Under the pieces are notes generated by a model that had not been told where the DNA came from, searched no databases, and saw only the letters and a program-made list of their open reading frames with translations. Shown piece after piece: positions 28,727-62,488 of a stretch of 64,000 nucleotides of DNA. The position numbers and the translations under genes were made by a program. Source of the DNA: Desulfatitalea tepidiphila (GTDB lineage Bacteria; Desulfobacterota; Desulfobacteria; Desulfobacterales; Desulfosarcinaceae); contig NZ_BCAG01000003.1 of NCBI RefSeq assembly GCF_001293685.1, forward strand, positions 1,984,001 to 2,048,000, given 5' to 3'. Position 1 is the first letter of the stretch, and each line of letters opens with the position of its first letter.

Positions 28727-28762
28727 GAAGAGTGCTGGCAGGCTCGCAAAAAATGGTTGCGG

Positions 28763-28887
28763 GACGGCGTCGTAAGAAGCTCAAGATCAAGGCGCTCGAA
28801 ATTCCGTGTCCTGAGGCGTACTTATTGTACGCTGCAAGGACGACGGGATGAGCGCAACACAGATATTGGGCTTCTTACGACGCCGTC
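28763..28887. repeat. MITE-like inverted-repeat element, copy A
   Basis: A 125-bp element with 17-bp perfect terminal inverted repeats, GACGGCGTCGTAAGAAG at 28763-28779 and its complement at 28871-28887. An inner palindrome has GTCCT...GGCGTAC with GTACGC...AGGAC around TTATT. Its right end overlaps the galE stop codon (28886-28888). It lies between convergent genes and could serve as a two-way terminator. A second copy in the other orientation is at 62363. Confidence 0.85.
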
Positions 28888-59036: not shown

Positions 59037-62000
59037 CTACCGCCAAATGCCCGCGAATACCAGGAGCCGGGCCGATTGCTGGTTTCCGGCGGCGTCGTAG
59101 GCCGTCACGGTGATGGTGTTGAACCAGCGGCTCAGCTTGATCTCGGGGATTTCCCAGGCCGTTGTCCCAATGGCCTGGCCGCTGCCGCCGCGGTCATTTT
59201 GCCACACCACGCGCACGACCTGTTGGTTGTCGGACGCCAGACCTTTCAAGGCGATCTTGGAGGTCCTTATCATATAAAAAGACGCATCGGGAGATGTGAT
59301 GTCGACTTCCGGAGCGGTCGTATCGATGACCGGCGCCGCCGCGTGAACCAGGACGCGGGAGCGATCCACGCTTTGCAGACCGCCGCTGTCCTTCACCGTC
59401 AACTCGAACTCAAGGGAGGTGTCCATGGTAACCAACGGGGCCATGAAGCGGGTAACGGCCGAAGTCGTGTTGTCCAGGGTCACCGAGGTGCCGGAGACTT
59501 GGCGCCACCGATAGGTGCCGATGCCATCGTCGCCGTCCCAGGAGGCCGATCCGTCGATGGTCACCACATTTCCGGCTGCCGCTTCCTGGTCTTCACCGGC
59601 ATCGGCCACCGGCGGCACGTTTTGCCAGGTCACGTTGACGATGCAATCGTCCTCACGCTGCAATCCACTGTAATCGACGACGGTCAGTTGGAAAGTCAAC
59701 GACGCACCCTCCGGACCGACATCCGGCGCCTGGAAGGTGGGCCGGGCGGCCTGGGCGTCGGAAAAGGCGACGGCCGGTCCGCTGATCTGATGCCAACGAT
59801 AGGCGCTGATACCGTCATCCGGATCGCTCGAAGCAGTGCCGTCCAAATGTACCGTCACGCCTTCGCTCACCGTCTGGTCTGGTCCGGCATCGGCCGTGGG
59901 GGCGATGTTTTCCCAGGAGATGTTGACCATACAAGTGTCGTCATGCTGCAGCCCCCCCTGATCGGTCACGGTCAATTGAAAGGTCAGCGTTGCCCCTTCG
60001 GGCCCGACATTAGGAGCGACGAACATGGGTTGAACTGCCGTTGCATCGGACAGGACCACCGGCAGACCCTTGGTCTGGCGCCATTGGTAGGCGGCGATGC
60101 CGTCATCCGGATCGCTGGAGTTGGAACCGTCCAGGTAGACCTCCTGCCCTTCAACCACTTGCTGATCCGGGCCGGCGTCGGCCGCCGGTTGGGTGTTGTT
60201 CCACCCCACGGTGACGATGCAGCGGTCGGTATCCTGCAGCCCGCCGCCGTCGGTCACGGTCAGTTCGAACAGGAGCGAAATGCCTTGCAGATCCACATCC
60301 GGGGCCGTGAAGGCGGGCCGCACCGCCGTGCTATCGGATAATGCCACCACCGGTCCTTGGATCTGGCGCCATTGGTAAAGGGAGATGCCGTTATCCGGGT
60401 CGACCGAGTTGCTGCCGTCGAGCACCACCACCTGGCCTTCGGTGACGGTTTGATCGGCACCGGCCTGCGCTGTCGGCGCTTCGTTGACCCAGGAGACGTT
60501 GACGATGCAACTGTCAGCGGCCACGGCGCCGCTGTGATCGGTAACGGTGAGTTCGAAAACCAGGGCCTGGCCTTCGACGTCGACATCGGGTGCGATGAAG
60601 GATGTCTCGGCTGCCGTGGGATCGCTCAATGCCACCGGGGTGCCCTGGGTCTGTTGCCAGGCAAAGGTGGCGATGCCATCGTCCAGGTCTACGCAGTTGC
60701 GCCCGCTCAAGGTCACTTCCATGGCCTCCTCCACGGTCTGATCCGGTCCGGCATCGGCCGTGGGCGGTTGATTGGATTGCACGAACGTCACGCCGATCGC
60801 ATGGTTGCCCGACACCGTGCTGAAGGTATAACTCTCCACGGCTCCCACGTCCCGGCCGTCGACCATGACCGCCTCGACGTCATATCCGTTGTCGGCACGG
60901 ATGGTGAACGCCTGACTGGCACCGCTGTTGACGGTCACCTGCCCGGTCGGTTCGATCGATCCCCCCTGGCCGGCCGAGGCCGAAATCGTATAGGTGTTGA
61001 CTGCGAAAGTCGCTGCGATGGTGTGGTTGCTGCTGACCGTACGGAAAGTATAGCTGGTCACCGCGCCCACCGACACCCCGTCCACCGTCACGTTGCTCAC
61101 GCGATAGCCGCTGGCCGGCGAAATCGAGTAGGTCTGATTGCCGCCATAAACCACGCTCGTAGTGCCGGACGGGCTGATCGTGCCGTTGGATCCGCACGAA
61201 GATGCGACCGTATAAGTATTGGCCGCAAACGTCGCGCTGATGGTGTGACCGGCGCTGACCGAACTGAACGTGTAGCTGGTCACCGCGCCCACCGACACCC
61301 CGTCCACCGTCACGTTGCTCACGCGATAGCCGCTGGCCGGCGAAATCGAGTAGGTCTGATTGCCGCCATAAACCACGCTCGTATTGCCGGACGGGCTGAT
61401 CGTGCCGTTGGATCCGCACGAGGATGCGATCGTGTAAGTATTGGCCGCAAAGGTCGCGCTGATGGTGTGACCGGCGCTGACCGAACTGAACGTGTAGCTG
61501 GTCACCGCACCCACCGACACTCCGTCAATGAGGACATCGGCAACGTGGAAACCCGCCAAGGCGGTGATTGCGTAGACCTGGCTTTCGCCGGCGTTCACCG
61601 TCGTTACACCGGCCGGCGAAATCTGGCCGTAAGCGCCGGCGGACGCCGTTATGGTGTAAGTCGGTGGCGCAGGCGGCTCGGACCGGAAGGAGGCTTCATT
61701 GGAGTCGCCGCTTTCATTCGTCCCGACGTAAGCCCGCACCACGTAATAGTAAGTGGTGTCGTCAACAAGATTGTCCAGGCTGGCACTTGTCGTAGCGCCG
61801 CTCCAGGCCGGCGTCGCGTAGTCATATGTACCGCCTTCGGTGCGCTGGTAAAGTCTGTATCCGTCCGGGGCGGGGTCGTTGGCGTCCCAGGCCAGGGTGA
61901 CCTGGGCGGCCTGAGCCGTTGCAAACAAGGTAAAGACAATTCCGATGGCCAAGACCCAGGCGAACGATCTCCTGGCGGCCATCCCCAATGGTGCTGACAT
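59037..62000 (-). CDS. Large secreted FN3/bacterial-repeat/PKD-type surface protein
   Basis: ATG 62000 (MSAPLGMAARR) with GGAGGT six bases upstream gives 987 residues. A signal peptide ends near ATAQA/AQVTL. Domains in order: one FN3-like (to about 115); four ~74-residue InlB-type B repeats (ASCGSNGTISPSG units); five ~90-residue PKD-like repeats beginning PTADAGPDQTV; and a final Ig-like domain. No sortase, PEP-CTERM or barrel anchor is seen, so it is probably secreted or held by other means. The 5' leader carries a c-di-GMP-I riboswitch, which suggests a matrix or adhesion role. Confidence 0.85.
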   Translation of the reverse strand: MSAPLGMAARRSFAWVLAIGIVFTLFATAQAAQVTLAWDANDPAPDGYRLYQRTEGGTYDYATPAWSGATTSASLDNLVDDTTYYYVVRAYVGTNESGDSNEASFRSEPPAPPTYTITASAGAYGQISPAGVTTVNAGESQVYAITALAGFHVADVLIDGVSVGAVTSYTFSSVSAGHTISATFAANTYTIASSCGSNGTISPSGNTSVVYGGNQTYSISPASGYRVSNVTVDGVSVGAVTSYTFSSVSAGHTISATFAANTYTVASSCGSNGTISPSGTTSVVYGGNQTYSISPASGYRVSNVTVDGVSVGAVTSYTFRTVSSNHTIAATFAVNTYTISASAGQGGSIEPTGQVTVNSGASQAFTIRADNGYDVEAVMVDGRDVGAVESYTFSTVSGNHAIGVTFVQSNQPPTADAGPDQTVEEAMEVTLSGRNCVDLDDGIATFAWQQTQGTPVALSDPTAAETSFIAPDVDVEGQALVFELTVTDHSGAVAADSCIVNVSWVNEAPTAQAGADQTVTEGQVVVLDGSNSVDPDNGISLYQWRQIQGPVVALSDSTAVRPAFTAPDVDLQGISLLFELTVTDGGGLQDTDRCIVTVGWNNTQPAADAGPDQQVVEGQEVYLDGSNSSDPDDGIAAYQWRQTKGLPVVLSDATAVQPMFVAPNVGPEGATLTFQLTVTDQGGLQHDDTCMVNISWENIAPTADAGPDQTVSEGVTVHLDGTASSDPDDGISAYRWHQISGPAVAFSDAQAARPTFQAPDVGPEGASLTFQLTVVDYSGLQREDDCIVNVTWQNVPPVADAGEDQEAAAGNVVTIDGSASWDGDDGIGTYRWRQVSGTSVTLDNTTSAVTRFMAPLVTMDTSLEFELTVKDSGGLQSVDRSRVLVHAAAPVIDTTAPEVDITSPDASFYMIRTSKIALKGLASDNQQVVRVVWQNDRGGSGQAIGTTAWEIPEIKLSRWFNTITVTAYDAAGNQQSARLLVFAGIWR
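61051..61494. repeat. Tandem 222-bp repeats inside the secreted protein gene
   Basis: Two adjacent near-identical 222-bp copies (61051-61272 and 61273-61494) encode 74-residue units; the phrase CCGCGCCCACCG recurs at 61061 and 61283, and as CCGCACCC at 61505. Flanking units are more diverged. The near identity points to recent duplication or gene conversion. Confidence 0.85.
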
Positions 62001-62003
62001 AGT

Positions 62004-62047
62004 GCTACCTCCGAGGTGCATTTATTTAGACAACCGATGCAACCTCT
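62004..62047 (-). promoter_or_regulatory. Ribosome binding site region able to be sequestered
   Basis: The RNA has GGAGGTAGC at 62012-62004, six or so bases before the ATG at 62000. GAGGTAGC is exactly complementary to GCTACCTC at 62055-62048, which lies just after the riboswitch aptamer. Pairing would hide the ribosome site. Confidence 0.7.
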
Positions 62048-62151
62048 GAGGTAGCCATCGTTTGCCTTCGGCAACCCTGCTACCTTGTCCTCGGATGCCG
62101 AGGATTTAGGCCAGTGGCTTTGCGTCCCACCCTTTCGGATGGTTTGCCGTT
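62048..62151 (-). ncRNA. Cyclic di-GMP-I (GEMM-I) riboswitch
   Basis: The minus strand reads in order: CGGCAAACC (5' arm of P1, ends 62149), CATCCGAAAGGGTG (P2 with a GAAA tetraloop), GGGACGCAAAGCC, ACTGGCCTAAA, CCTCGGCATCCGAGG (P3), AAGGTAGC and GGGTTGCCG (3' arm of P1). This order and the GACGCAAAGC and GGTAGC...GGGTT motifs match the GEMM-I architecture of the Vibrio Vc2 aptamer. The core is 62069-62149. The following GCTACCTC can pair either with the aptamer's GGTAGC or with the ribosome site of the secreted protein gene. Confidence 0.93.
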
Positions 62152-62221
62152 TCGGGCAGTTCGATCTGAACTGACGCCGGACAAATTTTTAGCAAATATG
62201 GTGCCATCAAATCTGAGCGAT

Positions 62222-62361: not shown

Positions 62362-62488
62362 GGACGGCACCGTAAGAAGCCCAATATCTGCGTTGCGCTC
62401 ATGCCGTGGTCCTTGCGGCGTACGACAAGTACGCCTCAGGACACGGAACTTCGCGCGCCTTGATCTTGAACTTCTTACGGTGCCGTCC
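62362..62488. repeat. MITE-like inverted-repeat element, copy B
   Basis: GGACGGCACCGTAAGAAG at 62362-62379 and its exact complement at 62471-62488 enclose about 90 bases related to copy A (28763-28887) in reverse orientation. The termini differ from copy A at two positions, in both arms alike, so pairing is preserved. It lies just after rsmG on the minus strand. Other sequence in 62236-62518 shows no gene. Confidence 0.85.

Follow-up and report, generated by a model that had tools for sequence, protein, structure and literature searches.

A 64,000-nt stretch of the Desulfatitalea tepidiphila genome (the window) carries on its minus strand a c-di-GMP-I aptamer ahead of a gene that encodes a large secreted protein, which raises the question of how ligand binding could be relayed to the ribosome binding site, by which RNA strand and with which sign. 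A preliminary description had proposed three mutually exclusive partners, all of which are present on the minus strand: GGTAGC within the aptamer (62084-62079), GCTACCTC behind it (62055-62048) and GGAGGTAGC at the ribosome site (62012-62004). From the analysis reported here we regard it as likely that the leader functions as a canonical c-di-GMP-I riboswitch whose translational OFF platform is switched through helix P1, i.e. through a strand other than the one originally named.

The controlled gene (59037-62000, minus strand) encodes a 987-aa product with an fn3 domain and PKD repeats (Pfam PF22352, PF18911 and PF00041, with PF22352 in five stretches). Its hydrophobic N-terminus resembles, by eye, a signal peptide, and the earlier label of a large secreted repeat protein is a fair one. 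The most likely translation start is ATG 62000 rather than the start of the longest open reading frame at 62021, because it sits behind a Shine-Dalgarno (SD) sequence and agrees with the relatives. An identity as an M36 peptidase was discarded, as the NCBIfam matches fall far under their cut-offs and overlie the repeats by position. The fn3-domain relatives that carry names belong to Desulfatitalea and Desulfosarcina, the best (93%) being from Desulfatitalea sp. UBA4791. The leader is preceded by rsmG and by the final part of an acetyl-CoA hydrolase/GNAT protein. In the interval that separates rsmG from the riboswitch we noticed a near-palindromic interspersed element of about 130 bp (62362-62488, minus strand) with a second copy elsewhere in the window (28762-28887, plus strand). 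Across the genome, 40 forward matches to this element were scored (138 candidates), the other 39 being 88-95% identical to the copy at 62362-62488; genome G007 has 38 matches, mostly at least 87% identical, and the other genomes with matches hold few or diverged copies (any match in 12 of 26 genomes). The genome itself (5.6 Mb, seven contigs) contains four RF01051 matches, one sigma-54 match and 13 matches to GGDEF, of which one is weak. Its fourth c-di-GMP-I aptamer (L004, G000:C7:55456-55534, minus strand) stands before what appears, by coordinates, to be a 728-aa GGDEF frame, which suggests feedback on c-di-GMP synthesis.

A search against Rfam RF01051, proposed earlier as a check, confirmed that the aptamer (62067-62158, minus strand) is complete. 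The match spans model positions 1-87 of 87 and scores 82.5 bits (E 1e-14) against a curated cut-off of 35; it is the sole Rfam match listed for the window, where a lower-scoring, overlapping hit from the same clan was set aside. The Rfam alignment places a GAAA tetraloop on P2 (CCGAAAGG), and the whole leader folds better than 200 of 200 dinucleotide shuffles (z −4.26).

RF01051 is present in 49 of the 60 genomes searched and in 28 of the family's 30, the window's own genome being included in both counts. The comparison set comprises 117 RF01051 places (the four of the window's genome included), with weaker, unlisted and many order-level matches left out. At 48 of these places, distributed over 27 genomes (26 among the family's 30), a secreted fn3-headed protein is encoded next, at an aptamer-to-start-codon distance of 52-85 nt. 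By eye, the 48 leaders were sorted into two types: group A, with 20 window-like leaders, and group B, with the other 28, including L001 from the same genome as the window. The group B alignment holds 23 of the 28, since L080 and L089 were dropped as identical copies and L026, L058 and L059 were hard to align; the start codons of L020, L067, L070 and L091 were set by hand. Sequences within the family are related, so the pairing and shuffle counts given below are not to be read as probabilities. The aptamer is not a universal companion of such genes: in a non-random choice of 20 fn3-gene loci, drawn from a listing of 78 (14 outside the comparison set or the family), RF01051 was found at one.

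In Vc2 numbering, the ligand contacts are G20, A47 and C92 (PMC4744006, PMC11218506), and the position equivalent to G20 guides ligand selectivity (PMC9262584). According to our mapping, the window has G62148, A62121 and C62071 at these places; among the group A leaders G is found in 19 of 20 (one has C) and A and C in all 20, and in group B each of the three residues is found in 23 of the 23 rows used. On sequence grounds, this canonical pattern points to c-di-GMP as the ligand. Switches for 3′,3′-cGAMP (GEMM-Ib, e.g. pilM) have a common fold with it and are marked by A at the selectivity position, whereas the window and nearly all of the group A and B leaders compared have G, which makes cGAMP the less likely ligand. 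The same holds for the c-di-GMP-I-GGC variant (RF03167), named for a G at the A47 place. The window does exceed the RF03167 cut-off (67.8 versus 59 bits), but its best clan model is RF01051 and its contact residues are G, A and C. RF03167 is the best model for four of the 12 fn3-type group A relatives compared (L016, L021, L025 and L028). Three side observations concern the aptamers at large. Four leaders of the set (L027, L036, L045 and L094) have A for G before the GC of P2 and may be cGAMP-type switches within the order; tandem c-di-GMP-I aptamers occur at one place in G046 (L107 and L108) and also in G038:C109; and a short hairpin of the AGTTC..GAACT type is found directly 5′ of the aptamer in the window (62172-62158) and in L012, L023, L043, L051, L028 and L071, contacting the 5′ strand of P1 in some group A leaders.

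Transcription of the leader would start near 62180, as judged from a sigma-54-type promoter 48 nt 5′ of the aptamer. This −24/−12 site (TGGCACcatatTTGCT, 62206-62191, minus strand; TGGCAC-N5-TTGCT) agrees with the sigma-54 consensus used for scoring at 11 of 11 positions. With a site defined as having GG and GC and matching at 9 or more of 11 positions within 150 nt 5′ of the aptamer, all 20 leaders of group A possess one (at 42-52 nt), as do 23 of the 28 in group B (at 26-78 nt). Altogether 43 of 48 fn3 leaders have it, versus 14 of 68 other leaders and 1.5% of shuffled 150-nt stretches. A scan of 24 leaders revealed no conserved palindromic activator site above the promoter; one candidate, CCCTATATAGGG, occurs in the window only and was rejected.

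The strands on which the proposed switch depends are shared among three helices. The 5′ strand of P1 (UGCCCG, 62158-62153) pairs with 62070-62069 and 62066-62063, giving UGCC/GGCA plus CG/CG. The GGCA strand (62066-62063) is also the base of a post-aptamer hairpin, hereafter hairpin (i) (62066-62029; −13.9 kcal/mol), which is composed of GGCAA/UUGUC, CGAUG/CAUCG and ACCU/AGGU and holds the anti-SD GCUACCUC (62055-62048) in its inner arm. The SD GGAGGUAGC (62012-62004) lies just 5′ of ATG 62000, and its core GGAGG (62012-62008) is invariant across the 20 group A leaders. The helix between anti-SD and SD (62055-62048 with 62011-62004), already recognized in the preliminary description, is present in the minimum free energy structure and forms hairpin (ii) (62055-62004; −26.7 kcal/mol), which adjoins P1 and is compatible with it. 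L012, the closest relative, keeps all switch strands with one change in the anti-SD. From this anatomy the following sequence of events may be proposed. Binding of c-di-GMP would close P1 and thereby consume the GGCA strand; hairpin (i), deprived of its base, would be weak, and the anti-SD would be free to capture the SD as hairpin (ii), so that translation is off. Without ligand, hairpin (i) would form co-transcriptionally ahead of SD synthesis and hold the anti-SD, leaving the SD available. The OFF sign and the kinetic nature of the ON state are predictions of the folding model.

Folding of both states, suggested earlier as a check, recovered the sequestering helix, but not an open form: at equilibrium every state compared, whether or not P1 is formed, has the SD of the full-length leader closed (ensemble energies −74.1 for hairpin (ii) and −64.6 for hairpin (i)). 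In a scan of the growing transcript without ligand, P1 appears first, followed by the pairing of GGUAGC with GCUACC (62055-62050), then hairpin (i), whose outer helix reaches 0.85-0.87 at 3′ ends 62026-62014, and finally hairpin (ii) from 62008 on. When the aptamer and P1 are imposed on the fold, the inner portion of hairpin (i) persists (0.8-0.9 at ends 62032-62017) before hairpin (ii) takes over. Path barriers to the closed form, which are heuristic upper bounds, amount to 20.5 kcal/mol from hairpin (i) and 13.8 kcal/mol with P1. In the ON form, the SD of the window may itself reside in a weak local hairpin (−5.5 kcal/mol).

The same scan bears on the platform as first conceived, in which GGUAGC (62084-62079) would pair with GCUACC without ligand, unmaking the aptamer and opening the SD, whereas in the presence of ligand the anti-SD would cover it. 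This pairing is perfect in the window, is a predicted transcription intermediate (0.73-0.92 at 3′ ends 62047-62032) and has an ensemble energy (−66.0) resembling that of hairpin (i). It also surpasses its own slid versions (72.7% of cells paired versus 40-52%), which is no surprise, since the structure was derived from one of these sequences and includes four nearly invariant pairs. Beyond the window, however, it dissolves: in the 17 group A leaders (of 20) that carry letters on either side, the central pair 62082-62052 can form in one, the window itself, and 62081-62053 in seven, the other four pairs fall on nearly invariant columns, and no measure rises above column shuffles. Moreover, hairpin (i) displaces the pairing once 62029 is transcribed, ahead of the SD, and refolding to the closed form is easy (barrier 7.9 versus about 20 kcal/mol). 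GGUAGC is thus retained as a part of the aptamer only; its alternative pairing is best seen as a property of one sequence, and we consider it unlikely as the switching step.

The P1-based platform is the one that the relatives preserve. After the aptamer, group A leaders show the pattern GGCAA..CGG..UCC..GGA..CCG.UUGUC, which corresponds to hairpin (i) with the anti-SD as inner arm, and the outer GGC(A) doubles as the 3′ strand of P1. Hairpin (i) is paired in 79.0% of cells and has 10 double-change cells versus 4.2 in shuffles, a number that none of 500 shuffles reaches; its covariation score is reached by 4 of 500. P1 is paired in 95.8% of group A cells with one double change (G-C to A-U, in two leaders), its covariation score being no higher than in shuffles (337 of 500) and equal to that of a +1 slide. 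Hairpin (ii) is paired in 71.6% of cells; its covariation score is reached by 11 of 500 shuffles, while its double-changed pairs are no better than in shuffles (371 of 500) and a one-column slide has more of them. Group B follows the same plan with other letters: P1, hairpin (i) and hairpin (ii) are paired in 98.3%, 85.9% and 93.5% of cells (23 of the 28 leaders), and the covariation scores are reached by 1, 1 and 0 of 500 shuffles, respectively. The strand sharing is reflected in the triple 62157.62064.62031, i.e. a P1 position, the base of hairpin (i) and its hairpin partner, which vary together: in the 20 group A leaders it reads G.C.G in 16, A.U.A in two (L021 and L086) and G.C.U in two. 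At a second triple, 62042.62052.62007, 10 leaders have A.U.A and the window has U.A.U; the remaining nine show neither combination. The excess over shuffles of hairpin (i) in group A and of all three helices in group B, together with the coupled triple in L021 and L086, argues for the canonical OFF switch; aptamer, P1, both hairpins and their strand sharing are supported by comparative sequence evidence.

The sign of the switch was approached through the SD opening cost with P1 enforced relative to the cost with the 5′ strand of P1 kept free, a rise being counted above 0.3 kcal/mol. P1 raises the cost in 39 of 43 leaders (22 of 23 in group B, 17 of 20 in group A), with median effects of +6.5 kcal/mol in group B and 2.2-2.4 kcal/mol in group A. 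Platforms shuffled 12 times per leader gave medians of +0.5 and +0.3 kcal/mol, respectively; 17 of 23 leaders in group B and 9 of 20 in group A surpass every one of their own 12 shuffles, and 6 of 23 and 11 of 20 do not. By prediction, the earlier call of an OFF sign at high c-di-GMP therefore stands. The opposite sign, with the SD being opened by the ligand, could be expected from the known adhesin targets, which are ON (Vc1, Bc2; PMC4744006, PMC4933901), and two leaders, L070 and L024, show a lower opening cost with P1 (−0.8 and −0.7 kcal/mol), though not in the other comparison. Yet P1 and the SD-closing hairpin are adjacent and compatible, such that the computed closure coexists with the bound form of the aptamer, the opening cost goes up with P1 in the large majority of leaders, and a non-systematic look brought up no conserved pairing by which the ligand-bound form would block hairpin (ii). 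We therefore hold an ON switch to be improbable.

In the window itself, P1 changes the opening cost by +0.4 kcal/mol, or +0.1 in another comparison. As the SD is closed with or without P1 and this effect is small, switching in the window copy would need to be under kinetic control, supported by the heuristic path barriers only. The OFF sign at high ligand is accordingly a family-level prediction of the model; the window appears to share the anatomy but hardly the equilibrium energy. One may then ask whether in this strain a working aptamer is attached to a platform that is locked off, with control exerted mainly by the sigma-54-type promoter. The closure of the SD at equilibrium in both states and the conservation of the promoter site are in favor of this idea, but no switch strand is disrupted in the window or, apart from the one anti-SD change, in L012, and we give such a locked state little credence.

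The platform was also used on its own as a search model. Model R1, built from 19 of the 20 group A leaders without L024, yielded 16 matches in 11 of 291 genomes drawn from the order, five of them outside the training set (L024, L217, L218, L220 and L221). L217, L218 and L220 precede an fn3-headed protein and retain, by eye, GGCAA/UUGUC and the CGG/CCG arm. The aptamers of L217 and L218 exceed the cut-offs of RF01051 (51.5 bits) and RF03167 (72.4 bits), respectively, that of L221 remains under the RF03167 cut-off (33.6 bits), and L220 (G019:C16) has no Rfam match at E 0.01. In L221 (G024:C463), neither an SD nor an ATG is seen where one would be expected. L220 and L221 represent decayed aptamers, of which L220 retains platform and gene. 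The recovery by R1 of four leaders new to the comparison set, three of which precede an fn3-headed gene, is a further argument for the canonical OFF switch. Another alternative is transcriptional control by a ligand-dependent intrinsic terminator. Although such terminators are known from other c-di-GMP-I/GEMM-I switches (Cd1, pilM, Bc2), no terminator-like site was found on the minus strand in the stretch from the aptamer to the start codon, hairpin (ii) has the SD as its 3′ end and lacks a U-run, and the distance from aptamer to ATG in the relatives is short (52-85 nt); this mode of control is very improbable.

Taken together with the promoter data, the P1-switched OFF platform leads to a wider proposal, to which we give slightly less than an even chance. 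Secreted fn3-headed proteins of the Desulfatitalea/Desulfosarcina family would form a regulon under a two-input gate made up of a sigma-54 promoter and a translational c-di-GMP-I OFF switch, in which a sigma-54 activator permits transcription and high c-di-GMP forbids translation, the ON form being purely kinetic and co-transcriptional. These exoproteins would then belong to a low-c-di-GMP phase, the opposite of the usual adhesin rule, and a large set of secreted proteins would be shut off, not turned on, by the "settle down" signal. For one sulphate-reducer family, this gives a c-di-GMP switch mechanism that can be tested strand by strand, and the corrected competitor strand decides which sequence changes are informative. 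No study on riboswitches of this family emerged from the titles and abstract beginnings screened or from passages of PMC11224092 and PMC4858559; for another sulphate reducer, Oleidesulfovibrio alaskensis, one c-di-GMP-I riboswitch has been reported (PMC11124144).

Among the known systems, those with attachment proteins as targets differ in sign. Expression from Vc1/gbpA and Bc2/cap goes up with c-di-GMP (PMC4744006, PMC4933901), so that the sign predicted here was fairly called unusual for an adhesin-like target, while OFF control as such is known from Vc2. In Cd1 of Clostridioides difficile, a transcriptional OFF switch, the bound aptamer and the terminator can exist side by side, in competition with a third form (PMC9262584). 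The window resembles it in that the ligand-bound aptamer and the OFF hairpin are, by computation, compatible and face a competing third form; however, the OFF hairpin of Cd1 is a terminator, whereas that of the window covers the SD. The closest relative is Vc2 (Vibrio cholerae tfoY), a translational OFF switch in which bound ligand restricts translation and P1 is the key element (PMC9262584, PMC7371385), and this precedent also speaks for the canonical OFF reading; a study on Vc2 by Inuzuka from 2018 reportedly refers in its title to masking of the ribosome site. The window shares the aptamer class and, by prediction, P1 as switching helix and the translational OFF mode, and most likely works like Vc2. 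Its predicted competitor hairpin shares the 3′ strand of P1, which may set it apart; further differences are the sigma-54-type promoter 5′ of the switch and the target, a secreted fn3/PKD protein in place of a regulator. The switch is of an already known kind; its competitor strand has been resolved by comparison, and its target class is unusual for the predicted sign.
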